Part shown: positions 1 through 30,157 of the stretch, piece by piece | Numbering within the stretch: position 1 is the first letter of the stretch | Layout: the number at the start of each line of letters is the position of its first letter | Assembly (NCBI RefSeq): GCF_021155765.1 | Contig: NC_060116.1 | Span: forward strand, 8,928,001 to 8,992,000 | Origin: Diprion similis | Lineage: Eukaryota; Arthropoda; Insecta; Hymenoptera; Diprionidae | Direction of reading: 5' to 3' | DNA length: 64,000 nt | Made by a program: the position numbers and the translations under genes | Notes under the pieces: model-generated | What the model saw: the letters and a program-made list of their open reading frames with translations, nothing else | Told to the model about the DNA's origin: nothing | Database searches by the model: none

Positions 1-3000
1 CTAAAGAATTAATTGCAGCACTTTTCAAAGTCGTCGAAATTTTCGCCAAAAATGCAAAGGGGTTAGCCTTGGATTTTTCTTAGCCGAATAATCTTTTGTC
101 TGGGAATCGATCCGTATGACGCTTTTTAGACTAATTCGACGCCCAGGGACTCAGAAAACACATGAAAAATAGCCTAGGACCAGCAGCGGAGAAATGACGA
201 TGAAAATCTGCAGTTTTCCGGCTGTAACTTTGCAGGTGTTGCTCGCAGCGTATCGGGACTGCGATTAATCGATTCCTCTCGCTAAATCACGTCGGAATAG
301 TACCCTAAAGAATTAATTGCAGCACTTTTCAAAGTCGTCGAAATTTTCGCCAAAAATGCAAAGGGGTTAGCCTTGGATTTTTTTTGGCCGAAAAATCTTT
401 TGTCTGGGAATCGATCCGTATGACGCTTTTTAGACTAATTCGACGCCCAGGAACTCAGAAAACACATGAAAAATAGCCTAGGACCAGCAGCGGAGAAATG
501 ACGATGAAAATCTGCAGTTTTTCGGCTGTAACTTTGCAGGTGTTGCTCGCAGCGTATCAGGACTGCGATTAATCGATTCCTCTCGCAAAATCACGTCGGA
601 ATAGTACCCTAAAGAATTAATTGCAGCACTTTTCAAAGTCGTCGAAATTTTCGCCAAAAATGCAAAGGGGTTAGCCTTGGATTTTTTTTGGCCGAAAAAT
701 CTTTTGTCTGGGAATCGATCCGTATGACGCTTTTTAGACTAATTCGACGCCCAGGAACTCAGAAAACACATGAAAAATAGCCTAGGACCAGCAGCGGAAA
801 AATGACGATGAAAATCTGCAGTTTTTCGGCTGTAACTTTGCAGGTGTTGCTCGCAGCGTATCGGGACTGCGATTAATCGATTCCTCTCGCAAAATCACGT
901 CGGAATAGTACTCTAAAGAATTAATTGCAGCACTTTTCAAAGTCGTCGAAATTTTCGCCAAAAATGCAAAGGGGTTAGCCTTGGATTTTTTTTGGCCGAA
1001 AAATCTTTTGTCTGGGAATCGATCCGTATGACGCTTTTTAGACTAATTCGACGCCCAGGAACTCAGAAAACACATGAAAAATAGCCTAGGACCAGCAGCG
1101 GAGAAATGACGATGAAAATCTGCAGTTTTTCGGCTGTAACTTTGCAGGTGTTGCTCGCAGCGTATCGGGACTGCGATTAATCGATTCCTCTCGCAAAATC
1201 ACGTCGGAGTAGTACCCTAAAGAATTAATTGCAGCACTTTTCAAAGTCGTCGAAATTTTCGCCAAAAATGCAAAGGGGTTAGCCTTGGATTTTTTTTGGC
1301 CGAAAAATCTTTTGTCTGGGAATCGATCCGTATGACGCTTTTTAGACTAATTTGACGCCCAGGAACTCAGAAAACACATGAAAAATAGCCTAGGACCAGC
1401 AGCGGAGAAATGACGATGAAAATCTGCAGTTTTTCGGCTGTAACTTTGCAGGTGTTGCTCGCAGCGTATCGGGACTGCGATATATCGATTCCTCTCGCAA
1501 AATCACGTCGGAATAGTACCCTAAAGAATCAGTTGCAGCACTTTTCAAAGTCGTCGAAATTTTCGCCAAAAATGCAAAGGGGTTAGCCTTGGATTTTTTT
1601 TGGCCGAAAAATCTTTTGTCTGGGAATCGATCCGTATGACGCTTTTTAGACTAATTCGACGCCCAGGAACTCAGAAAACACATGAAACATAGCCTAGGAC
1701 CAGCAGCGGAGAAATGACGATGAAAATCTGCAGTTTTTCGGCTGTAACTTTGCAGGTGTTGCTCGCAGCGTATCGGGACTGCGATTAATCGATTCCTCTC
1801 GCAAAATCACGTCGGAATAGTACCCTAAAGAATTAATTGCAGCACTTTTCAAAGTCGTCGAAATTTTCGCCAAAAATGCAAAGGGGTTAGCCTTGGATTT
1901 TTTTTGGCCGAAAAATCTTTTGTCTGGGAATCGATCCGTATGACGCTTTTTAGACTAATTCGACGCCCAGGAACTCAGAAAACACATGAAAAATAGCCTA
2001 GGACCAGCAGCGGAGAAATGACGATGAAAATCTGCAGTTTTTCGGCTGTAACTTTGCAGGTGTTGCTCGCAGCGTATCGGGACTGCGATTAATCGATTCC
2101 TCTCGCAAAATCACGTCGGAATAGTACCCTAAAGAATTAATTGCAGCACTTTTCAAAGTCGTCGAAATTTTCGCCAAAAATGCAAAGGGGTTAGCCTTGG
2201 ATTTTTTTTGGCCGAAAAATCTTTTGTCTGGGAATCGATCCGTATGACGCTTTTTAGACTAATTCGACGCCCAGGAACTCAGAAAACACATGAAAAATAG
2301 CCTAGGACCAGCAGCGGAGAAATGACCATAAAAATCTGCAGTTTTTCGGCTGTAACTTTGCAGGTGTTGCTCGCAGCGTATCGGGACTGCGATTAATCGA
2401 TTCCTCTCGCAAAATCACGTCGGAATAGTACCCTAAAGAATTAATTGCAGCACTTTTCAAAGTCGTCGAAATTTTCGCCAAAAATGCAAAGGGGTTAGCC
2501 TTGGATTTTTTTTGGCCGAAAAATCTTTTGTCTGGGAATCGATCCGTATGACGCTTTTTAGACTAATTCGACGCCCAGGAACTCAGAAAACACATGAAAA
2601 ATAGCCTAGGACCAGCAGCGGAGAAATGACGATGAAAATCTGCAGTTTTTCGGCTGTAACTTTGCAGGTGTTGCTCGCAGCGTATCGGGACTGCGATTAA
2701 TCGATTCCTCTCGCAAAATCACGTCGGAATAGTACCCTAAAGAATCAGTTGCAGCACTTTTCAAAGTCGTCGAAATTTTCGCCAAAAATGCAAAGGGGTT
2801 AGCCTTGGATTTTTTTTGGCCGAAAAATCTTTTGTCTGGGAATCGATCCGTATGACGCTTTTTAGACTAATTCGACGCCCAGGAACTCAGAAAACACATG
2901 AAAAATAGCCTAGGACCAGCAGCGGAGAAATGACGATGAAAATCTGCAGTTTTTCGGCTGTAACTTTGCAGGTGTTGCTCGCAGCGTATCGGGACTGCGA

Positions 3001-6000
3001 TTAATCGATTCCTCTCGCAAAATCACGTCGGAATAGTACCCTAAAGAATTAATTGCAGCACTTTTCAAAGTCGTCGAAATTTTCGCCAAAAATGCAAAGG
3101 GGTTAGCCTTGGATTTTTTTTGGCCGAAAAATCTCTTGTCTGGGAATCGATCCGTATGACGCTTTTTAGACTAATTCGACGCCCAGGAACTCAGAAAACA
3201 CATGAAAAATAGCCTAGGACCAGCAGCGGAGAAATGACCATAAAAATCTGCAGTTTTTCGGCTGTAACTTTGCAGGTGTTGCTCGCAGCGTATCGGGACT
3301 GCGATTAATCGATTCCTCTCGCAAAATCACGTCGGAATAGTACCCTAAAGAATTAATTGCAGCACTTTTCAAAGTCGTCGAAATTTTCGCCAAAAATGCA
3401 AAGGGGTTAGCCTTGGATTTTTTTTGGCCGAAAAATCTTTTGTCTGGGAATCGATCCGTATGACGCTTTTTAGACTAATTCGACGCCCAGGAACTCAGAA
3501 AACACATGAAAAATAGCCTAGGACCAGCAGCGGAGAAATGACGATGAAAATCTGCAGTTTTTCGGCTGTAACTTTGCAGGTGTTGCTCGCAGCGTATCGG
3601 GACTGCGATTAATCGATTCCTCTCGCAAAATCACGTCGGAATAGTACCCTAAAGAATTAATTGCAGCACTTTTCAAAGTCGTCGAAATTTTCGCCAAAAA
3701 TGCAAAGGGGTTAGCCTTGGATTTTTTTTGGCCGAAAAATCTTTTGTATGGGAATCGATCCGTATGACGCTTTTTAGACTAATTCGACGCCCAGGAACTC
3801 AGAAAACACATGAAAAATAGCCTAGGACCAGCAGCGGAGAAATGACGATGAAAATCTGCAGTTTTTCGGCTGTAACTTTGCAGGTGTTGCTCGCAGCGTA
3901 TCGGGACTGCGATTAATCGATTCCTCTCGCAAAATCACGTCGGAATAGTACCCTAAAGAATTAATTGCAGCACTTTTCAAAGTCGTCGAAATTTTCGCCA
4001 AAAATGCAAAGGGGTTAGCCTTGGATTTTTTTTGGCCGAAAAATCTTTTGTCTGGGAATCGATCCGTATGACGCTTTTTAGACTAATTCGACGCCCAGGA
4101 ACTCAGAAAACACATGAAAAATAGCCTAGGACCAGCAGCGGAGAAATGACCATAAAAATCTGCAGTTTTTCGGCTGTAACTTTGCAGGTGTTGCTCGCAG
4201 CGTATCGGGACTGCGATTAATCGATTCCTCTCGCAAAATCACGTCGGAATAGTACCCTAAAGAATTAATTGCAGCACTTTTCAAAGTCGTCGAAATTTTC
4301 GCCAAAAATGCAAAGGGGTTAGCCTTGGATTTTTTTTGGCCGAAAAATCTTTTGTCTGGGAATCGATCCGTATGACGCTTTTTAGACTAATTCGACGCCC
4401 AGGAACTCAGAAAACACATGAAAAATAGCCTAGGACCAGCAGCGGAGAAATGACGATGAAAATCTGCAGTTTTTCGGCTGTAACTTTGCAGGTGTTGCTC
4501 GCAGCGTATCGGGACTGCGATTAATCGATTCCTCTCGCAAAATCACGTCGGAATAGTACCCTAAAGAATTAATTGCAGCACTTTTCAAAGTCGTCGAAAT
4601 TTTCGCCAAAAATGCAAAGGGGTTAGCCTTGGATTTTTTTTGGCCGAAAAATCTTTTGTCTGGGAATCGATCCGTATGACGCTTTTTAGACTAATTCGAC
4701 GCCCAGGAACTCAGAAAACACATGAAAAATAGCCTAGGACCAGCAGCGGAAAAATGACGATGAAAATCTGCAGTTTTTCGGCTGTAACTTTGCAGGTGTT
4801 GCTCGCAGCGTATCGGGACTGCGATTAATCGATTCCTCTCGCAAAATCACGTCGGAATAGTACCCTAAAGAATTAATTGCAGCACTTTTCAAAGTCGTCG
4901 AAATTTTCGCCAAAAATGCAAAGGGGTTAGCCTTGGATTTTTTTTGGCCGAAAAATCTTTTGTCTGGGAATCGATCCGTATGACGCTTTTTAGGCTAATT
5001 CGACGCCCAGGAACTCAGAAAACACATGAAAAATAGCCTAGGACCAGCAGCGGAGAAATGACGATGAAAATCTGCAGTTTTTCGGCTGTAACTTTGCAGG
5101 TGTTGCTCGCAGCGTATCGGGACTGCGATTAATCGATTCCTCTCGCAAAATCACGTCGGAATAGTACCCTAAAGAATTAATTGCAGCACTTTTCAAAGTC
5201 GTCGAAATTTTCGCCAAAAATGCAAAGGGGTTAGCCTTGGATTTTTTTTGGCCGAAAAATCTTTTGTCTGGGAATCGATCCGTATGACGCTTTTTAGACT
5301 AATTCGACGCCAAGGAACTCAGAAAACACATGAAAAATAGCCTAGGACCAGCAGCGGAGAAATGACGATAAAAATCTGCAGTTTTTCGGCTGTAACTTTG
5401 CAGGTGTTGCTCGCAGCGTATCGGGACTGCGATTAATCGATTCCTCTCGCAAAATCACGTCGGAATAGTACCCTAAAGATCTAATTGCAGCACTTTTCAA
5501 AGTCGTCAAAATTTTCGCCAAAAATGCAAAGGGGTTAGCCTTGGATTTTTTTTGGCCGAAAAATCTTTTGTCTGGGAATCGATCCGTATGACGCTTTTTA
5601 GACTAATTCGACGCCCAGGAACTCAGAAAACACATGAAAAATAGCCTAGGATCAGCAGCGGAGAAATGACGATGAAAATCTGCAGTTTTTCGGCTGTAAC
5701 TTTGCAGGTGTTGCTCGCAGCGTATCGGGACTGCGATTTATCGATTCCTCTCGCAAAATCACGTCGGAATAGTACCCTAAAGAATTAATTGCAGCACTTT
5801 TCAAAGTCGTCGAAATTTTCGCCAAAAATGCAAAGGGGTTAGCCTTGGATTTTTTTTGGCCGAAAAATCTTTTGTCTGGGAATCGATCCGTATGACGCTT
5901 TTTAGACTAATTCGACGCCCAGGAACTCAGAAAACACATGAAAAATAGCCTAGGACCAGCAGCGGAGAAATGACGATGAAAATCTGCAGTTTTTCGGCTG

Positions 6001-9000
6001 TAACTTTGCAGGTGTTGCTCGCAGCGTATCGGGACTGCGATTAATCGATTCCTCTCGCAAAATCACGTCGGAATAGTACCCTAAAGAATTAATTGCAGCA
6101 CTTTTCAAAGTCGTCGAAATTTTCGCCAAAAATGCAAAGGGGTTAGCCTTGGATTTTTTTTGGCCGAAAAATCTTTTGTCTGGGAATCGATCCGTATGAC
6201 GCTTTTTAGACTAATTCGACGCCCAGGAACTCAGAAAACACATGAAAAATAGCCTAGGACCAGCAGCGGAGAAATGACGATGAAAATCTGCAGTTTTTCG
6301 GCTGTAACTTTGCAGGTGTTGCTCGCAGCGTATCGGGACTGCGATTAATCGATTCCTCTCGCAAAATCACGTCGGAATAGTACCCTAAAGAATTAATTGC
6401 AGCACTTTTCAAAGTCGTCGAAATTTTCGCCAAAAATGCAAAGGGGTTAGCCTTGGATTTTTTTTGGCCGAAAAATCTTTTGTCTGGGAATCGATCCGTA
6501 TGACGCTTTTTAGACTAATTCGACGCCCAGGAACTCAGAAAACACATGAAAAATAGCCTAGGACCAGCAGCGGAGAAATGACGATGAAAATCTGCAGTTT
6601 TTCGGCTGTAACTTTGCAGGTGTTGCTCGCAGCGTATCGGGACTGCGATTAATCGATTCCTCTCGCAAAATCACGTCGGAATAGTACCCTAAAGAATTAA
6701 TTGCAGCACTTTTCAAAGTCGTCGAAATTTTCGCCAAAAATGCAAAGGGGTTAGCCTTGGATTTTTTTTGGCCGAAAAATCTTTTGTCTGGGAATCGATC
6801 CGTATGACGCTTTTTAGACTAATTCGACGCCCAGGAACTCAGAAAACACATGAAAAATAGCCTAGGACCAGCAGCGGAGAAATGACGATGAAAATCTGCA
6901 GTTTTTCGGCTGTAACTTTGCAGGTGTTGCTCGCAGCGTATCGGGACTGCGATTAATCGATTCCTCTCGCAAAATCACGTCGGAATAGTACCCTAAAGAA
7001 TTAATTGCAGCACTTTTCAAAGTCGTCGAAATTTTCGCCAAAAATGCAAAGGGGTTAGCCTTGGATTTTTTTTGGCCGAAAAATCTTTTGTCTGGGAATC
7101 GATCCGTATGACGCTTTTTAGACTAATTCGACGCCCAGGAACTCAGAAAACACATGAAAAATAGCCTAGGACCAGCAGCGGAGAAATGACGATGAAAATC
7201 TGCAGTTTTTCGGCTGTAACTTTGCAGGTGTTGCTCGCAGCGTATCGGGACTGCGATTAATCGATTCCTCTCGCAAAATCACGTCGGAATAGTACCCTAA
7301 AGAATTAATTGCAGCACTTTTCAAAGTCGTCGAAATTTTCGCCAAAAATGCAAAGGGGTTAGCCTTGGATTTTTTTTGGCCGAAAAATCTTTCGTCTGGG
7401 AATCGATCCGTATGACGCTTTTCAGACTAAATCGACGCCCAGGAACTCAGAAAACACATGAAAAATAGCCTAGGACCAGCAGCGGAGAAATGACGATGAA
7501 AATCTGCAGTTTTTCGGCTGTAACTTTGCAGGTGTTGCTCGCAGCGCATCGGGACTGCGATTAATCGATTCCTCTCGCAAAATCACGTCGGAATAGTACC
7601 CTAAAGAATTAATTGCAGCACTTTTCAAAGTCGTCGAAATTTTCGCCAAAAATGCAAAGGGGTTAGCCTTGGATTTTTTTTGGCCGAAAAATCTTTTGTC
7701 TGGGAATCGATCCGTATGACGCTTTTTAGACTAATTCGACGCCCAGGAACTCAGAAAACACATGAAAAATAGCCTAGGACCAGCAGCGGAGAAATGACGA
7801 TGAAAATCTGCAGTTTTTCGGCTGTAACTTTGCAGGTGTTGCTCGCAGCGTATCGGGACTGCGATTAATCGATTCCTCTCGCAAAATCACGTCGGAATAG
7901 TACCCTAAAGAATTAATTGCAGCACTTTTCAAAGTCGTCGAAATTTTCGCCAAAAATGCAAAGGGGTTAGCCTTGGATTTTTTTTGGCCGAAAAATCTTC
8001 TGTCTGGGAATCGATCCGTATGACGCTTTTTAGACTAATTCGACGCCCAGGAACTCAGAAAACACATGAAAAATAGCCTAGGACCAGCAGCGGATAAATG
8101 ACGATGAAAATCTGCAGTTTTTTGGCTGTAACTTTGCAGGTGTTGCTCGCAGCGTATCGGGACTGCGATTAATCGATTCCTCTCGCAAAATCACGTCGGA
8201 ATAGTACCCTAAAGAATTAATTGCAGCACTTTTCAAAGTCATCGAAATTTTCGCCAAAAATGCAAAGGGGTTAGCCTTGGATTTTTTTTGGCCGAAAAAT
8301 CTTTTGTCTGGGAATCGATCCGTATGACGCTTTTTAGACTAATTCGACGCCCAGGAACTCAGAAAACACATGAAAAATAGCCCAGGACCAGCAGCGGAGA
8401 AATGACGATGAAAATCTGCAGTTTTTCGGCTGTAACTTTGCAGGTGTTGCCCGCAGCGTATCGGGACTGCGATTAATCGATTCCTCTCGCAAAATCACGT
8501 CGGAATAGTACCCTAAAGAATTAATTGCAGCACTTTTCAAAGTCGTCGAAATTTTCGCCAAAAATGCAAAGGGGTTAGCCTTGGATTTTTTTTGGCCGAA
8601 AAATCTTTTGTCTGGGAATCGATCCGTATGACGCTTTTTAGACTAATTCGACGCCCAGGAACTCAGAAAACACATGAAAAATAGCCTAGGACCAGCAGCG
8701 GAGAAATGACGATGAAAATCTGCAGTTTTTCGGCTGTAACTTTGCAGGTGTTGCTCGCAGCGTATCGGGACTGCGATTAATCGATTCCTCTCGCAAAATC
8801 ACGTCGGAATAGTACCCTAAAGAATTAATTGCAGCACTTTTCAAAGTCGTCGAAATTTTCGCCAAAAATGCAAAGGGGTTAGCCTTGGATTTTTTTTGGC
8901 CGAAAAATCTTTTGTCTGGGAATCGATCCGTATGACGCTTTTTAGACTAATTCGACGCCCAGGAACTCAGAAAACACATGAAAAATAGCCTAGGACCAGC

Positions 9001-10336
9001 AGCGGAGAAATGACGATAAAAATCTGCAGTTTTTCGGCTGTAACTTTGCAGGTGTTGCTCGCAGCGTATCGGGACTGCGATTAATCGATTCCTCTCGCAA
9101 AATCACGTCGGAATAGTACCCTAAAGAATTAATTGCAGCACTTTTCAAAGTCGTCGAAATTTTCGCCAAAAATGCAAAGGGGTTAGCCTTGGATTTTTTT
9201 TGGCCGAAAAATCTTTTGTCTGGGAATCGATCCGTATGACGCTTTTTAGACTAATTCGACGCCCAGGAACTCAGAAAACACATGAAAAATAGCCTAGGAC
9301 CAGCAGCGGAGAAATGACGATAAAAATCTGCAGTTTTTCGGCTGTAACTTTGCAGGTGTTGCTCGCAGCGTATCGGGACTGCGATTAATCGATTCCTCTC
9401 GCAAAATCACGTCGGAATAGTACCCTAAAGAATCAATTGCAGCACTTTTCAAAGTCGTCGAAATTTTCGCCAAAAATGCAAAGGGGTTAGCCTTGGATTT
9501 TTTTTGGCCGAAAAATCTTTCGTCTGGGAATCGATCCGTATGACGCTTTTCAGACTAAATCGATGCCCAGGAACTCAGAAAACACATGAAAAATAGCCTA
9601 GGACCAGCAGCGGAGAAATGACGATGAAAATCTGCAGTTTTTCGGCTGTAACTTTGCAGGTGTTGCTCGCAGCGCATCGGGACTGCGATTAATCGATTCC
9701 TCTCGCAAAATCACGTCGGAATAGTACCCTAAAGAAATAATTGCAGCACTTTTCAAAGTCGTCGAAATTTTCGCCAAAAATGCAAAGGGGTTAGCCTTGG
9801 ATTTTTTTCGGCCGAAAAATCTTTTGTCTGGGAATCGATCCGTATGACGCTTTTTAGACTAATTCGACGCCCAGGAACTCAGAAAACACATGAAAAATAG
9901 CCTAGGACCAGCAGCGGAGAAATGACGATGAAAATCTGCAGTTTTTCGGCTGTAACTTTGCAGGTGTTGCTCGCAGCGTATCGGGACTGCGATTAATCGA
10001 TTCCTCTCGCAAAATCACGTCGGAATAGTACCCTAAAGAATTAATTGCAGCACTTTTCAAAGTCGTCGAAATTTTCGCCAAAAATGCAAAGGGGTTAGCC
10101 TTGGATTTTTTTTGGCCGAAAAGTCTTTTGTCTGGGAATCGATCCGTATGACGCTTTTTAGACTAATTCGACGCCCAGGAACTCAGAAAACACATGAAAA
10201 ATAGCCTAGGACCAGCAGCGGAGAAATGACGATGAAAATCTGCAGTTTTCCGGCTGTAACTCTGCAGGTGTTGCTCGCAGCGTATCGGGACTGCGATTAA
10301 TTGATTCCTCTCGCAAAATCACGTCGGAATAGTACC
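1..10336. repeat. Satellite DNA: 34 head-to-tail copies of a 304-bp monomer
   Basis: The phase marker CTAAAGAATTAATTGCAGCA recurs at 1, 305, 609, 913 and on to 10033 and 10337, exactly every 304 bp (33 x 304 = 10032), with no net insertion or deletion. Units differ from one another by only a few scattered substitutions. The monomer contains CTGCAG, CCTAGG and ATCGAT palindromes and a T-rich tract. Because 304 is not a multiple of 3, frame shifts between units, so long ORFs here are not conserved. The array continues beyond the left edge. Such homogeneous arrays are usually centromeric, pericentromeric or subtelomeric in insects; which one applies here cannot be told from the sequence. Confidence 0.98.
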
Positions 10337-10999
10337 CTAAAGAATTAATTGCAGCACTTTTCAAAGTCGTCGAAATTTTCGCCAAAAATCCAAAGTGGTT
10401 AGCCTTACTTTTTTTGCGATTTTTAGAGCTAAAAATTTCTCGTCTCCGAATTGATTTGTATGACCGTTTCTTGGCTAATTGGAACCCAAGGAACTCAAAA
10501 AACACATCAAAAAAAGCGTAGGAGCAACAGCAGAGAAATGACGATGAAAATCCGCAGTTTTTTGGCTGTAACTTTCGAGCCGTTGCTTGCAGCGTATTGG
10601 GACTGCGCTCAATCGATTTCTCTTGCAAAATTACGTCGGAATAGTGCCCTAAAGAATTAATTGCAGCACTTTTCAAAGTCGTCGAAATTTTCGCCAAAAA
10701 TCCAAAGGGGTTAGCCTTACTTTTCCTGCGATTTTGGAACCTAAAAATTTCTCGACTCTGAATTGATTTGTATGACCGTTTCTTGGCTAATTGGAACCCC
10801 AGGAACTCAAAAAACACATCAAAAAAAGCGTAGGAGCAACAGCAGAGAAATGACGATGAAAATCCGCAGTTTTTCGGCTGTAACTTTTGAGCCGTTGCTC
10901 GCAGCGTATTGGGACTGCGCTTAATCGATTTCTCTTGCAAAATTACGTCGGAATAGTCGCTCAAAGAATTTATTGCAGGACTTCTCAGAATCGTCGAGG
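10337..10999. repeat. Diverged edge monomers (about 312 bp) of the satellite
   Basis: Two further units start at 10337 and 10649. Each is about 312 bp, about 8 bp longer than the main monomer. They resemble one another more than the main family: both have TTGATTTGTATGACCG and GGAGCAACAGCAGAG where the main family has different bases. The first roughly 50 bases of each unit and the stretch around GAAATGACGATGAAAATC match the main family. After about 10960 a third unit begins, is degraded, and is lost by about 11000. This is the usual picture at a satellite edge, where homogenisation fails. Confidence 0.93.
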
Positions 11000-12766
11000 G
11001 CTCCCGTTTAAACGACTCCTGCCGATAAATATGCTTCTGGATCGCTACCGCGTCTTTTCAAGGCCCTAGGCCCATGCAGGTCCGCCGAGTGTTGATCATC
11101 ATATTTTTCCTAGGGTTTGCAGCCTCCAAATATCTTGGTTAAAGGTCTAGGTCAAATATGCGAGTATCTACCATCGCTGGGATTCCCAAAGTTTCCTCTG
11201 AATACGCACGTAAGACGGGGAAGTATGAAAATCGATTATAAAGCCTCTGTGGCCTGATTCTGTCTCATCTTTCACTCGTGAAAACAAGACTTTACGCTCA
11301 ATGGTTCATCCTGATTGGCTCAGATGGCTTTTCCGAATGGAAAACATACTAGAATCAGGAGCCCAGCACAATAAGAGGGAATTAAAAATAGGTATCGAAT
11401 TATACTATACGATTGACGTAGCTTTTATAAGGCGCCTTGCGATTGGCTGATTTCCATTCTGATTTCTCATTTCGTCCCATTGTTTTAGGGGGTTTATCTT
11501 CGTGAATATGCGCCCGCTACCGTGTTGCACTCATGCGCATGCGTATGTAGACAGTCGAATGTCAATCGTATTTTTCCGCGAAAAGTACGGCAAACGTTAT
11601 CTGCGCGCGGGAACTGGTAAACCGGACACGCAGAATGCGGTACATTATCTTCACTCTTGTCAGTTCAACGTCAGCTTTCAGAGAGTGCGTATTGGAGCTT
11701 TTCACAGGTATGCACCTACTGTGGGTCACAAACCGCAATGACCCCTTCATAACGTTGTTATATTCTATTACCTGAATTTTGTGATAACTAATACGACTTA
11801 CATTACGATTCATTATTTCACCAATTATCAGGAATATTTTACAAATTACTTTATATAGCTGCAAGTCATTTGAAAATTGAATAATCTTATTAGGTGTGAA
11901 AAAAATGCTGAATTCTAGCACTCTGTATTAGGTGTGAATATGAGTATGACTTCTAAGAATCTCTGATTGAATATTACCAAAGATTTTTAAGTTCTATCTT
12001 AAGGATGTATATGTTTTGTTTATAATTCACTTGAATACGAAATATTCAAAAAGGAAAAGCCAATCCAATTTCACCTTCGCTTACTGCAGGGCGGCAAATT
12101 CGCCGTTCGATTATTTCAGTGGCGCGCAAGTCCGTGCGTGCCTTAGAGCATATACCCGAAGTCTTCACAAACGGCTAATTTCACATTCGTTCCAAGCATG
12201 TCGCGACATGTCAGACGCGTCTTTCGAATAATACACAAGAGAAGTTTCGAGAACGACAACGATAGGTTGCCGTGATTTTTCATTGATTGAAATTTCGTTT
12301 CAAACCACTAAATTGCAGGAAATTATTCATATAAGGAGCGTAAACATGGCTAAACCTTTCTAAAGACTTACGTCAGATAACTTGAGAAAATTCAAGTGGT
12401 TATGTTAAAGGTTATGTAGTGAATATTTTGTACTTCGGGGCTGAAATTTGTATGGTGATGTTTTAACCACCTGTGGATTAGGATGGCGTTCATAAGTCCG
12501 AGCAGCGTATTCCAGGGGTGTGGAAACGAATTTGACAATTCAAGCCTGGATCGCGAAAAATCTTGGATGATACTTAGGGATTCGTTCAAAATACGCTTTT
12601 GCATCTCTACTAACAAAATGGATTTATTATTTTTCGTGCCAGAAGTCGAGTTGACAGCAAAGTTTGCTTGAGCACTAAAGTAACCGGAATATCTTCCAGA
12701 AAAGCGGATCTGTGATATTCACTACCTTTGTCGATCCATACAACCTGTGTCAAACTTCTCAGCAAC
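11000..12766. other. Intergenic DNA between the satellite and the kinase gene
   Basis: I see no convincing gene. Short ORFs at 11502-11741 (+), 11562-11921 (-), 12016-12231 (+) and 12392-12616 (-) have no recognisable motif or splice context. A possible acceptor (CTTCTCAG) lies just before the kinase ATG, so an untranslated leader exon, or an unrecognised upstream coding exon, could sit here. Confidence 0.6.
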
Positions 12767-14623
12767 ATGACTACAGATTCTGAGTCAGAGTATTTATCCA
12801 AGTTTGAGCATATCTGCAATCTTGGACGTGGTGGGCAGGGAACCGTTGTCGAAGCTAAAAATAAAAAGGACAGTAAACATTATGCTGTCAAACGGATTAC
12901 TATATCAAAAAGGTGTTGCATAATTATGTATACATATTTTTAAATAATAAAATATTACATGTATTACTAAAGAAATACATATTGAACTCTAATTTTTAGT
13001 GAACATTCACCCGAACAAGCTTTGCGTGAAGTACAGGCTTTGGCAACTTTTCAACACCCTAACATTGTAAAATACTACGATGCCTGGATAGAATATTCAC
13101 TAGATGAATTGCAAGAAACACATGATGAGTTCTTGGATGAAGAAACATCATATTCAAGCACAGTTTCGAACACAAGTCAAAAACGAATTCAAAGATGTCA
13201 GAAAAATAATTCATATTCAAGCATAGTTTGGAATATAATTGGAAAACTGATGCAAACAAGTCAGGAAAATAATTTATATTCAAGCACAGTTTGGAACATG
13301 ATTGGAAAACTGATTAAAACAAGTCTGAAAAATAATTTATATTCAAGCACAGTTTGGAATATAATTGGAAAACTATTCAGAAAAACAATTCAGAATAATG
13401 ATTCATATTCAATAGATTCTATCAGTCAATCAAGAACTGACAACATGCAAATGAAAATCTTTCTATACATACAAATGGAGCTATGTCAAAGACACAGTCT
13501 CAAAGAATGGTTGGTACACACAGCAAAAACAAGAGATACCCAGCATAGTCTGAAGATCTTTTACCAAATCGTTAACGCCGTTCAATACATTCACAATCAA
13601 GATCTGATCCATCGTGACTTGAAGGTAACTTACATTCTAAGACATTGAATAGGTATATTAGTTTGATAGTTTTCATGTTATGGCATGGCATTTGAAGCAT
13701 GTAAACTAAGACTTACCATCGTCAGCAACTTACTCCTATCTAAGTACACTCATTATAAACCATTACGTTTGTAGAACGCCGAGTAACTAAAACTTGTATC
13801 CTTTCAGCCGGCTAACATTTTTTTTGCACCTGATGATAAGATCAAAGTTGGTGACTTTGGACTCATCTCAGCAATACAGGCAGATTGCAACGAATATGAT
13901 ACTACCAGTAGCATATCAGAAGTGAAAAAAATTAAAGCAAAATTGAATACTGCCGGTGTAGGCACCGCGTTATACATGGCTCCAGAACAGAAAGAAAACA
14001 GTCAAAGTTATAACAACAAAGTGGATGTTTATTCACTAGGTATCATTTTCTTCGAACTCTTAGAACCTATGACAACTGACATGGAAAGAAGTCGTAAGAT
14101 CGGATCTTTGAAGAATTTAACTTTTCCACCAGATTTTGAGCAGCGATATCCAGATGAGGTATGTAGTATCTACTTTAATTATTTCATGTGTAACTTTAGT
14201 TTGGTGTGCAGGCCACCCACTACTTTGTCATTGATTTAATCTTGACTAAATTTTTAATCACTCATTTGGCTGTTATAGTTACACCTAATACCGTTTTTTA
14301 TCACATGCTAGTGCAAATTGCTGAAGATCATGCTGCATGAAAATCCAAAGAGACGTCCAACGGCGTCAGGCATCAAAAGACGACCACCATTATGTAATCT
14401 ACGATATGGTACGGACTTCGAAGAAAGTACGCAGATTTCATCGTCTCCCAGGCAAACATTGGAAGACCGAAACAAAAATAGTTTATGTCCACCTTCTGCA
14501 TTATCCACTGATCCGTCTGACGATCACACGGAGTCAGGGATCACATTCTTCTTCGTTTTGTTTTCCTCATTATTATTATTAATAATCTGCATTAATTTTG
14601 GAAAGAAACGTACTGATTTATGA
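12767..14623 (+). CDS. eIF2-alpha kinase-like (PERK-type) protein kinase with C-terminal membrane anchor
   Basis: Exons 12767-12912, 13000-13624, 13808-14158 and 14312-14623 join in phase to give 477 aa. The kinase domain is complete: glycine loop GRGGQG (21-25 region), VAIK-type lysine in YAVK (K42), helix-C glutamate (E59), HRDLK (D255), PANIFF (N260), DFG (D273) and MAPE (314-317). Spacing and wording (IQMELC, VGDFGL, PNIV) fit eIF2-alpha kinases, nearest to PERK, which shuts down translation by phosphorylating eIF2-alpha. A large insert between strands beta4 and beta5 holds four 21-residue repeats. Residues 451-470 form one hydrophobic segment followed by GKKRTDL, so the protein looks tail-anchored with the kinase in the cytosol. 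There is no N-terminal luminal, heme or RNA-binding domain. The start is the first ATG after an in-frame stop at 12713; a missed upstream exon is possible. An HRI- or PKR-like origin is less likely. Confidence 0.88.
13151..13405 (+). repeat. Four tandem 63-bp repeats coding a 21-aa unit in the kinase insert
   Basis: TATTCAAGCAcAGTTT recurs at 13151, 13214, 13277 and 13340 with an exact 63-bp period, so the frame is kept. Each unit begins YSS, followed in copies 2-4 by a hydrophobic stretch (VWN-IIGKL type) and a basic, asparagine-rich tail ending NN. Copy 1 is the most diverged and copy 4 is one residue longer. The units lie at about residues 100-184, between the beta4 and beta5 strands. Confidence 0.9.
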
Positions 14624-14745: not shown

Positions 14746-14751
14746 AATAAA
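14746..14751 (+). terminator. Poly(A) signal AATAAA of the kinase gene
   Basis: AATAAA lies 123 bases past the kinase stop codon, before the end of the convergent gene at 14867. This gives a short 3' UTR. Confidence 0.6.
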
Positions 14752-14866
14752 GCTACAAAATTAGGAATTATCCCTTTCTAATTTATGCAATAAATTATAT
14801 CCAGTAATAAGAATGGAACTTTGCATACATTCCTGATATTCCTTTTGGACTATTTTTCAAATGAAA

Positions 14867-15579
14867 TTAATAATTTTTTTGTAAAGATAATTTCGCATCT
14901 TCATATTCCTCCCTAATTTGGTATAAGTCGGTATTGTTATTCGTTAATTTCGATTCCCAAACATTCAATGTTATTATGTTGTTGAGGATCAATGATTTTT
15001 CATGCTCTCCCACCAATCTACATAAGTTATTTCTCTGTGCACTTATTACGTAAAACATAGAAACTGGGTGGTCGTAGTTAAATATATTTTATTAATATCA
15101 TGAGTATTATATCATTATAGTGTTTGTGTAATTGTTATGATTGAGTACATGAGATTAACAATAATGTCAGGTCTTCATAATCTGCATTGTTCCTTACAAG
15201 CATCATATTTTTGCTTGTCTTGCATACATTTATCAAGAACTATATTCCACACGCTTGCAAGGAACGGTAACGTAATGTGCTTAAGTAGTAAATTGTGCAT
15301 CCTGATTCGTCAAAAAATCATTCATAGTTTCGAATATTTCCAGACACACACAACGGTTTTGAGAGGCCAATTCCAGTCTATGTTCGGCACAACATTCTGG
15401 AAGAACGAAAAAAAACGGTTGAACGATAAAAATGTGAGAACAAATAACGCGTGCATGAATTTGGATAAAATCCAAAGTATCTTACTTCTCAGTTCGATTA
15501 TCTCTTGTATTATTTCTTTCAGCTTGAAAATATCCGCCTCTATATCTTCCAGTAACTCTTTTTCGATAGTTTGCGACAT
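14867..15579 (-). pseudogene. Small coiled-coil gene with a one-base frame conflict, possibly BLOC-1 subunit 5 (Muted)-like
   Basis: Three - strand exons are bounded by good sites: 15486-15579 (donor GTAAGA), 15198-15396 (acceptor TTCTTCCAG, donor GTAAGG) and 14867-15063 (acceptor CCCAG). Exon 1 reads an acidic, leucine-rich helix starting MSQTIEKELLEDIEAD; the last exon reads a charged helix ending SLQKNY. The phases of exons 1 and 3 are compatible only if exon 2 lost one base: its first part is open in one frame to 15281 and its second part is open in the next frame from about 15309. Without the extra base the product would be about 160 aa. Size, helix layout and a C-terminal tryptophan/acid pattern recall BLOC1S5, but the match is weak. 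It is either a real frameshift (pseudogene), an assembly error, or a mis-joined model. Confidence 0.4.
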
Positions 15580-19673: not shown

Positions 19674-21819
19674 ATGGTAACATTTGAAACGTACTTTTCA
19701 GCGGGGTGTAAATCTGATGTGAGAGTAAACAGGGAACCACCAGCAAGACATTTCGAAAATGCAGTATCAAAGTTTGAAGAACGTCGTGGTAACATGGTGC
19801 AACGTCAGCAGTTTCTCAAAAATAAAATCACCACCATGGAGAGATCAATTCCTGCTCTGATGGCCTATAACATGTGGGTATCAGGACAAAAATGCGCTGA
19901 TGCACCACTGTGCAAGGTTAAGGAAATTATGGCCAAATTCTCGCCAATACCTGACCCTACAGACAAGCTGCTGGAAAATTTGAAGAATACAGTGACTGCG
20001 CTAAATGAGGAAACTGAGAAACTGCACGTACGTATAAACTTTTTTTTTCATTGTCCGCACTCTATTAGTAAGTACAAACATTGTTCTCACTTTCATCTTA
20101 CCACAGCTGCTCTCTAATCATTGTTTTGTCTAGTTTCTAGTGGGTCATGTTTTTATGTCAGCCTTTCAGGCAATGTCTATTGTATCTATAACCGACACGT
20201 GCATATTTTCTGTTAGGTGAGCGGTAAGAGTTCTGATTTTTAGACTTTTTTCGCAGGGTAAAATAATTGACACCGAAATAGAGTTGGAAGAGAGCGGAAT
20301 GCAACTGGATTCTTTGGAATCAGCGAACAACGATCTGACTAAACGAATAGCAGACCTGGAGCATGAAGTAGAAAAAACTACTGTGCCAAGTCTTCATTCC
20401 ATTCACTCGGACGATCTTGTTTGCCTTTCGAAACTTCGAAAGCTTGGATCCGAAGAGGTGAATTTGAAATGTTGTATCCGTGAACTGGAGGAGAAGGAGG
20501 TCAAGTTCCGACAGCAAATAGAACAGCTACTGACTTCGAGAGAATTCCAGAAGGATTCTGGTGGTAAAAAAATGGTTAAACGGATACAGGAGCTTGAATC
20601 GACGGAGAGAAAAATGAATTGTGCGTTACAGACACACAAGCATAACATGCACCAACTTAAAAAGAAGCTCATGCAAAAAGAAAAGGCTATAGTAAGTATA
20701 TATTCAATACTCGAAGTACTATTGGGTAATTCTTATTGGTCACTTACGATTTCAGATTGAAATGGAAATGTGCCTTGGAATGGACGGGGAATCAAGAGCC
20801 TCGAAAAAGAACTCTATTGCCAAAAAAGACTGCAAGCAAAGTTCAAATCAGAATGGTTCCTGGCTACCAAAGTGGATGGTTCCTAGCTGTTCAAAGGCTT
20901 CTGACTCCACAAGCTCTCCCAGAAAGGGATCGGAGTCATCGTCTTGTACAGCAACATTCACAACTGACGCTGAAGTAAGCCAAGACGGGAATTTATTAAG
21001 ATCTTGAACCTAAACAGTAACTACATGTTCGAAATGTCCCTCATACAGGGAAAGCTAAAGCGGTGCATCTGCTCTACTCCTGCTCCAGTCCCATGTTATG
21101 AAAAGCCTCCTTGTAGACCAAACACTTCAAAACCAAGACCATGTTGTATGCTCCCAGCAAGTGGACCTCCGCCTTGCCCACCTCCACCTTGTCTCTTGCC
21201 GTGCAAGCCATCTCCATGTTCACCTGCACCCCGTAAACCGTCACCCTGTCCTCTCCCATCATGTTGTAAACCACCGTCCTGTCCACCACCACCATCATGC
21301 GAACCGGTTAGGTGTGTACCACCTCCATCGTGTGCACCACCACCGTGCAAGCCTCCAATCTGTCTACCTGCGGCAGTCCGTTGCCAGAATAAACCACTTT
21401 GCAAGCCACCAGAGTGCCTTGAATCCCCAACGTGTTTTAGACCGGATCCTGCTTGTCCGTATGCATATTGTGGTCAGACTTCTTGTCCACCATCAACTTG
21501 TCCACCGGCACCTTGTGACTCTGGGTCTCTCTGCCACACGTGCCAATCGCCTACTCCTTGTAAGGAGTGTCTGCCGCTGCCGGAACCAGGTGGTTGTCGA
21601 TGTTCATGCAAGGGAAAATGCTCCCGCGGAGAATCCAGTGTTCCCTGTAATTGCAGTGTAACCCCAAAGTGCAGCGCTGATAGGGGCTATCAACCCGAAG
21701 GATTGCCGAAACCTCCTTGTGGAGGAGAAACCGGCTGTTGGCTAGAAGAAGATAGTGACGAAGAATTTTGCGACTGTTGCGATTGCGGTTGCAACGACAG
21801 TGACGATTCTACTCCATGA
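19674..21819 (+). CDS. Coiled-coil protein with a proline/cysteine-rich C-terminal domain
   Basis: Exons 19674-20027, 20257-20691, 20756-20974 and 21049-21819 are all joined by phase-0 introns and give 592 aa. Residues about 20-263 are charged, heptad-like helices (for example KFEERRGNMVQRQQF, LTKRIADLEHEVEK). Residues about 264-336 are serine- and lysine-rich. The last exon (337-592) is dense in CPPP, CKPP and PPSC motifs, then CxC pairs, and ends in an acidic stretch EEDSDEEFCDCCDCGC. The Pro-Cys domain recalls cross-linked sperm-tail (outer dense fibre, Mst-type) or cuticle-like proteins, so a structural role, perhaps in sperm, is plausible inference only. The first exon may really start at 19702 after an acceptor, with the true start upstream. 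No family assigned. Confidence 0.75.
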
Positions 21820-28963: not shown

Positions 28964-30157
28964 TCATTTGGACAATGCAGAGGCTTCTTCCGCTAGTTTG
29001 CTATGAGTATACTCGATAGCCTGAAAGAAAAGACGAGGTATCATTTTCGGAACGTCGAGTAAGATTTTTTCATCTTTTTTGCAAATAATACCTTGTAATA
29101 GTTGACTGTTTTGACCCGAAGTTCGACTGTCGAATCTTTGTCGCAAATTAGCAGAGTGCGAGGATGCTGCTGGAAAGCCGAAATTTCCCACATGCTGTTG
29201 ATACCTTCTTCGACAGCTTTCTGTAGCGCAACTGCTTTCGCAGTGCCGTTGAAAATGAAGAGTAGTTCACCTATTTCCATCATGTTGTCGATTCCAACCG
29301 TGAGCACCTGCCTTGGAACTTTTCTCGTGTCGTTGTCAAAGTGGACACAAATTTCTTTCACGCTCATTTCACCCAACGTCTTCACTCTGGTACGAGAGAG
29401 GAGAGATGATCCAGGAACGTTCCAGGCAACATGTCCGTCGAGGCCAACTCCTGGAGTAAAATAGAAGTATATTCGCGATTTACTCGATGATGTTTTCTTC
29501 TTCCAATTTTTTTTTTTTTATACAATAATAATCGGTGATTTTATGACGAAGCGTTTTTTAGTGCGAATCAAAAATAAAATGTGAGCAGGGCAGAGTATTA
29601 TATACGTCGACAATGAATGCAGAATATCTACACCTGTCATGTGAAGATCTATGCCTCCAGCTTCCTTGATCTTCTTCTCGTATTCTTCGCATTCGGCTAC
29701 CAAATCCGATGCCGTGCCATTCAGCGTGAACACATTTTTAGGGTCGATATCCACATGGTCGGTGAAATTATTATGCGTGTAACTATAATAGGATACTGGA
29801 TTATCACTTGCTATACCCACGTATTCCATTAGGTTGAATGTCTTGACATATCTGAAGGATACTTTTCCTGCCTTGTAATATTCGATTAATTTCTTGTACA
29901 CGCCAGCGGGTGAGCTATCTGAAAAGTAACTATTTTTGTGGTAAATATGTCGAATAATAATTGCGCAAAGTAGGACTTAAGGATCTAGCCAAAAATATAT
30001 GATTGTAATAAATGTTCAAAAAATTTAATGTACCTGAGCCCATTGCCAAAACGAAATATTTATTCGCGTTAGGATTGAAATCATGAATTCTTTTCAGAAT
30101 ATACTTAGCCGTCCATTCTGTTACATCAGCCATCGTATCGTGGATTATTAAACGCAT
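28964..30157 (-). CDS. Glucosamine-6-phosphate deaminase paralogue, predicted inactive
   Basis: Exons on -: 30034-30157, 29634-29918, 29092-29450 and 28964-29020 join in phase to give 274 aa, normal for GNPDA. The family turns glucosamine-6-phosphate into fructose-6-phosphate and ammonia. Marks kept: MRLIIHDT start, YKKLIEYYKAG, YVKTFN, PGSSLLSRTRVKTL, SAFQQHPRT. Numbered as in E. coli NagB, D141 and H143 remain, but D72 (NMDEY) is methionine (NLMEY), E148 (FNEP) is valine (WNVP), and the phosphate loop GLPTGGTP is AMGSDSSP. Losing D72 and E148 should abolish deamination. Splice sites and frame are intact and the fold residues look conserved, so this reads as a pseudoenzyme rather than a decaying pseudogene. 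It lies inside the AKR cluster in the same orientation. Confidence 0.93.

Follow-up and report, generated by a model that had tools for sequence, protein, structure and literature searches.

The Window Gene and Its Product

The window, i.e., the whole 64-kb stretch of Diprion similis DNA analysed here, carries on its plus strand a four-exon gene that runs from ATG to stop exactly over positions 12767–14623 and would encode a product of 477 amino acids (Table 1). A single frame stays open across the exons up to a TGA codon, and the three introns, of 87, 183, and 153 bp, have GT-AG borders. Frame breakage and intron loss, the marks of a pseudogene or a retrocopy, are both absent.

The product is a complete protein kinase according to Pfam (Pkinase, E = 7.6e-50), and its top three matches among solved structures are kinase chains of EIF2AK3 (PERK), with E values from 1.7e-72 to 3.7e-71, the structures of GCN2, HRI (EIF2AK1), and PKR ranking below them. 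The catalytic residues K42, E59, D255, and D273 are present, and the glycine loop and the threonine and G-T of the activation loop are intact. In the alignment, 45 of the 47 columns that are invariant in seven other eIF2α kinases are kept, the bridge arginine discussed below being one of the two that are lost. The α-G motif TTDMER, which in eIF2α kinases docks eIF2, is also retained. With a kinase domain nearest to those of PERK, GCN2, HRI, and PKR and with its catalytic residues in place, the predicted product is confirmed as an eIF2α-type kinase. The first-pass annotation of this DNA had placed such a domain close to the first methionine, which agrees with the similarity to PERK from residue 7 on and with the Pfam and structure matches.

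Table 1. Coordinates of the window gene, of its features, and of the other eIF2α kinase genes of the assembly (plain numbers are window positions; C4, C12, and C13 are contigs).
Feature	Position	Strand	Remarks
Possible non-coding first exon	11660..11707	+	predicted by inspection; initiator-like TCAGTT, donor CAG/GTATGC at 11708
Candidate acceptor TTCTCAG/CAACATG	12762/12763	+	could join donor 11708
Coding exon 1	12767..12912	+	MTTDSE, then α-0 helix, glycine loop, β-3 lysine K42; PERK match from residue 7
Reversed salt-bridge residues in exon 1	E8, 12788–12790; K12, 12800–12802	+	α-0 helix
Coding exon 2	13000..13624	+	α-C glutamate E59, kinase insert with the repeats, LYIQM, HRDLK
Tandem repeat, four units of 63 bp (21 codons)	13148..13399	+	most of the kinase insert
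Coding exon 3	13808..14158	+	DFG, activation loop with T-x-x-V-G-T, APE, α-G motif TTDMER
Coding exon 4	14312..14623	+	last part of the kinase domain, then a new linker, the hydrophobic tail, and the stop codon
Predicted tail anchor	14540..14596	+	from hydropathy; 19 residues, then FGKKRTDL; coding DNA about half T
AATAAA poly(A) signal	14746..14751	+	second one at 14789
Canonical PERK gene	C12:11,377.5–11,382 kb		same contig, 2.44 Mb from the window copy
PERK membrane segment	C12, around exon starting 11,379,797
PERK kinase exons (four)	C12:11,380,197–11,381,951		from the SRYL motif on
GCN2-type kinase	C13, 924–934 kb		closest to GCN2; HisRS-like part by eye only
HRI-type kinase	C4, 15,191–15,193 kb		closest to HRI

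Canonical PERK and the Ancestry of the Window Copy

The assembly to which the window belongs (269 Mb, 60 contigs) was searched with the window protein. Besides the window itself there was one clearly closer locus, C12:11,380,188–11,381,837, with 40–68% identity by piece, and the other matches listed were weaker matches to kinases. This locus belongs to the canonical PERK gene, which has luminal pieces, a membrane segment, and four kinase exons; the luminal pieces match EIF2AK3-named chains at E = 2.1e-47 (best stretch, residues 4–172 of 307) and match IRE1 weakly. The first-pass annotation had raised the question of a separate full-length PERK in this genome, and the C12 locus, with its luminal and membrane segments, answers it. 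Since an HRI-type and a GCN2-type kinase are found in addition to this PERK, the window gene is, by its predicted product, an extra PERK-type kinase and the fourth eIF2α kinase of the genome. PMC5025754 gives invertebrates two eIF2α kinases, a count that fails here.

All three kinase introns lie at identical positions and in identical phases in PERK and in the window copy (2, 0, 0; the intron preceding exon 2 is in phase 2 and the one following it in phase 0), and the two proteins are 57–58% identical over the core. In a tree of eight rows with moderate node supports, the window copy groups with the genome's PERK (81/80) and both group with human PERK (94/95). At the level of gene and protein comparison, the window gene is shown to be a DNA-level duplicate of the PERK kinase exons, and a retrocopy was rejected, as the introns common to both genes argue against it. 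Derivation from HRI or GCN2 was rejected, as both kinase types are found separately and the tree favours PERK. A viral origin was rejected as well: when viral contigs were scanned once with an alignment of three rows, two peptide patterns found matches in 80 stretches, and no relative was among these.

The branch of the window copy is long (0.91 vs. 0.14 for PERK), which reflects relaxed or changed constraint. Pairwise comparison of the two genes gives pN 0.253, pS 0.688, and dN/dS of about 0.17, with dS (1.87) near saturation and the ratio being an average shared with the slow PERK. When PERK codons were mutated uniformly at random up to the observed overall divergence, a mean of 10.2 stops arose and none of the 1000 runs was stop-free. 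These figures argue for long selection on the predicted protein, though they partly belong to PERK's own branch. The earlier suggestion of a retained PERK duplicate is thus supported by the tree placement, the shared introns, and the signs of constraint.

Comparison of the window with a 25-kb PERK region gave no convincing flank similarity beyond the satellite and the kinase exons. With the low-complexity filter off, two short T/A-rich matches to the opposite strand appeared, one of 35 bp at 14555–14589 (E = 7.8e-4), inside the T-rich coding DNA of the anchor, and one of 31 bp at 14863–14893 (E = 0.009); we attribute both to chance. When the stretches upstream and 3′ of the gene were aligned directly with those of PERK, 113 and 175 of 200 shuffles, respectively, scored as well. 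The satellite has a 304-bp unit, is present in 36 copies, 98% alike, at window positions 1–10997, fills the whole 10 kb preceding the window, and forms an array of more than 20 kb that ends 1.8 kb before the gene. Near PERK, this satellite sets in some 2.5 kb past the stop codon (C12:11,384.4 kb), where it is 80–91% alike to one unit. A satellite-driven duplication was considered and rejected: the satellite is found on at least eight contigs, so that its adjacency to both PERK genes proves little.

The Missing Sensor

The frame is closed by a stop codon upstream of the ATG at 12767. The luminal query was composed of seven pieces assigned to the luminal exons of PERK, one of which (15 amino acids) is of doubtful coding status. 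Its strongest hits, with E = 0.041 at 38.8 kb within the 64-kb window and E = 0.030 within the 10 kb preceding it, are not convincing, and genome-wide its four matches were all exons of the C12 PERK locus. The claim that the N-terminal sensor is absent stands in the window and the preceding 10 kb, and the luminal domain upstream of 12767 that would have contradicted it was looked for in the DNA and not found.

Upstream exons of at least 60 nt were sought, a restricted choice of donor patterns being allowed, and four in-frame candidates resulted. Donor 11708, instead of closing a non-coding exon, could add 68 or 51 residues (from an ATG at 11508 or 11559), and use of two weaker donors would lengthen the protein in frame by 23 or 27 residues. 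No hydrophobic segment is present in these four candidates (best mean 0.55), and together with the in-frame stop this leaves no membrane segment N-terminal to the kinase. None of the upstream options found would restore the PERK luminal domain.

The Hydrophobic Tail and the Kinase Insert

After the kinase domain, the window copy still matches the PERK motif GIKARPPLANL, and the sequence beyond is new. The hydrophobic C-terminal segment described in the first-pass annotation, followed there by GKKRTDL, is recovered at residues 450–468, with a Kyte-Doolittle mean of 2.75, and is followed by N469 and FGKKRTDL. The best hydropathy window starting before residue 430 reaches 1.07, and for the membrane region of PERK itself, once the parts on either side of its intron are joined, the value is 1.55. 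By hydropathy alone, the product has one C-terminal hydrophobic segment and no other, as in a tail-anchored protein. As a control, 200,000 random overlapping draws were made from window positions 11–64 kb, coding DNA included; 80 of the 34,610 stop-free 35-codon stretches (0.23%) held a 19-mer with a mean of at least 2.5.

Since the 3′ alignment is no better than shuffles, the tail is not traceable to the PERK 3′ UTR. Thymine-rich DNA readily yields membrane segments, according to PMC7005711, which makes an origin of the tail from non-coding DNA plausible and also means that the anchor may be incidental.

The four tandem repeats of the insert (63 bp × 4) were not mentioned in the earlier note, and no further copies of the unit were found in the genome at the sensitivity of the search. 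The insert has a net charge of +2 over 114 residues, vs. −15 over 154 in PERK, and a structure prediction for exon 2 alone gave no usable fold (mean pLDDT 39.6). In five of the six pairs of repeat units, the changes show no bias towards third codon positions, so there is no sign of strong protein-level constraint on the repeats. An amphipathic, membrane-binding insert was considered and rejected: shuffles of the same residues reached the same moment in 385 of 2000 cases and the same lipid-binding score in 496 of 2000, and a membrane-binding role is thus unsupported. On these grounds, we ascribe no function to the insert.

The Reversed Salt-Bridge Residues

The most telling feature of the window copy, in our opinion, is a charge-reversed dimer contact that the earlier note did not contain. 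According to PMC2291453, Arg262 of PKR bonds Asp266 of the opposite subunit (Asp269 being printed once in its discussion where Asp266 is meant), a single bridge mutation impairs human PKR whereas reciprocal reversal restores activity, and the bridge is said to matter too in yeast GCN2 and human PERK. The equivalent pair is R and D in the genome's PERK, human PERK, and PKR, and R and E in the GCN2 and HRI rows, the arginine being invariant and D or E conserved across the seven other kinases aligned. Where PERK has SRYLTDFE, the window copy has SEYLSKFE, and the alignment shows both bridge residues reversed in the predicted protein, R to E and D to K. From the present codons of PERK, each change takes two bases (CGG to GAG and GAC to AAG).

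Of the 79 charged positions of the PERK core, 50 keep their sign in the copy, 23 have lost their charge, and six carry the opposite one. The bridge pair accounts for two of these six, for which the chance is 0.0049 if reversals are random, a figure computed after the pair had been noticed. The other dimer contacts are kept, D289, Y293, and Y323 of PKR being aligned with D35, Y39, and Y74. Judged by charge, two copies could still form the bridge, each side taking the role of the other, and in a pair with PERK like charges would meet. The bridge residues are missing from 11 of the 31 PKR/PKZ sequences considered in PMC2291453, so that the bridge is not indispensable everywhere and its residues can drift in a kinase that probably still works.

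A Proposed Mechanism and Its Rivals

Taken as a whole, the earlier interpretation is partly supported: what stands is the PERK-type kinase, the duplicate, the absence of the sensor, the C-terminal segment, and the separate PERK. Control by membrane crowding or by the insert and an antiviral role, also raised there, are conjectural. We lean, with somewhat better than even confidence, to a sensor-less, membrane-tethered, PERK-derived eIF2α kinase that would homodimerise apart from PERK by means of the reversed bridge. The protein would insert tail-first into a membrane, most likely that of the ER and possibly the mitochondrial outer membrane, with its kinase domain facing the cytosol. Local concentration would then drive back-to-back homodimers held by the reversed bridge, which would phosphorylate eIF2α. 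In a mixed pair, E would face D and K would face R; with like charges facing each other, the copy would signal apart from PERK and would not poison it. The kinase would most likely be constitutively competent and governed by its amount or by local crowding, and, as no sensor was found, expression level or crowding is the simplest candidate for the trigger. The fuller statement is that of a novel type of eIF2α kinase, namely a tail-anchored PERK paralogue without sensor whose dimer interface has become orthogonal through a natural reciprocal reversal of charges, so that the animal would have two membrane stress kinases that do not interfere with each other. It is held more tentatively, as a possibility that falls short of an even chance.

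Several other readings of the same data have to be weighed. The copy may be a working PERK-derived kinase in which the charge reversal is coincidental drift, other contacts serve for dimerisation, and pairing with PERK still occurs. The PKR/PKZ sequences without the bridge (11 of 31; PMC2291453) fit such drift, as do the fast evolution of the copy (branch 0.91) and the other dimer contacts kept, but R is invariant and D/E conserved in the seven other kinases, both ends have flipped to the opposite charge at two base changes each, and the chance among charged core sites is the 0.0049 given above; we regard drift as unlikely, though the strongest of the rivals. That the gene is a degenerating or unexpressed duplicate whose frame stayed open by luck would agree with its long branch, its diverged insert and tail, and the satellite array of more than 20 kb that ends 1.8 kb before it. 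It is hard to reconcile with four intact exons and their GT-AG sites, 45 of 47 invariant columns, a dN/dS of about 0.17, no stop-free run in 1000 neutral simulations, and poly(A) signals in place, and it seems improbable to us.

Only slightly less probable is an N-terminal extension from an upstream exon, by which the start at 12767 would be internal. Four in-frame candidates exist for it, two with the good donor 11708 and two with weaker donors, yet none is hydrophobic (0.55 at best), the window and the preceding 10 kb hold no PERK luminal match, and a transcript start near 11660 would exclude the candidates. We give the smallest chance to the copy being a regulator of PERK and not a kinase in its own right; it would then sit at the membrane as a decoy and either titrate eIF2 or damp PERK by pairing with it. 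Truncated mimics of eIF2α kinases are known elsewhere, e.g., baculovirus PK2, and the lack of a found sensor and the kept TTDMER motif would suit a decoy; K42, E59, D255, and D273 are nevertheless all present, and the reversed charges should disfavour pairing with PERK.

Comparison with Known Systems

PERK (EIF2AK3/PEK) is the nearest relative in the tree and shares with the window copy the kinase domain, the three introns, the RPPLxNL motif after the kinase, and the α-G and activation-loop motifs. The two differ in that neither a luminal sensor nor a membrane segment ahead of the kinase turned up for the copy, that its insert consists largely of repeats, and that it has a hydrophobic segment after the kinase and a reversed bridge. 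HRI, GCN2, PKR, and PKZ each have sensor domains of their own. All four have the eIF2α kinase domain in common with the copy; HRI, GCN2, and PKR, which were aligned, are 39–41% identical to it, and in none of these three is the bridge reversed. In tail-anchored proteins, as in the window copy, there is one hydrophobic segment within the last 30 or so residues and a short basic tail. For the reversal itself, the PKR bridge mutants of PMC2291453 serve as a model. Other membrane-bound eIF2α kinases are trypanosomatid K2 (TcK2) and Plasmodium PK4. According to PMC4450062, TcK2 lies in endosomes and has the order signal peptide, membrane segment, and kinase, as PERK and unlike the window copy, and PK4 is called PERK-like in topology.

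In a title-level literature search among open-licence papers, none of the titles listed dealt with a tail-anchored eIF2α kinase or with a PERK that is tail-anchored, duplicated, or from Hymenoptera, and as far as that search goes both the layout and the predicted dimer interface appear new. Other natural reversals of the bridge may exist, and, as the genome comparison covered this one animal assembly, orthologues of the copy may already be in public annotation. The eIF2α kinases differ by their sensors, and a copy with no sensor, another topology, and a rewired contact would show how a duplicate escapes interference with its parent. If this is true, evolution would have carried out on its own the charge reversal that was made by mutation in PKR, the lineage would have a fourth arm of the integrated stress response, and the question of interference with the parent could be tested directly by one or two point changes per side.

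Neighbourhood of the Gene

Further along the window, six ORFs on the minus strand between 23275 and 53894 look by eye like exons of aldo-keto reductases in an apparent tandem family, and the two that were tested both match PF00248. Amid them, also on the minus strand, an ORF at 29518–29901 resembles by eye a glucosamine-6-phosphate isomerase. A cysteine- and proline-rich ORF at 21004–21819, with no Pfam match, adjoins coiled-coil-like ORFs at 19674–20760 and is reminiscent of insect sperm-tail proteins. A COX1 frame stays open under the invertebrate mitochondrial code, which is consistent with an invertebrate source. Elsewhere in the assembly, a COX1-like stretch with five TGA codons lies on a large contig (C7:8182164-8182700) and is possibly a nuclear copy of mitochondrial DNA.
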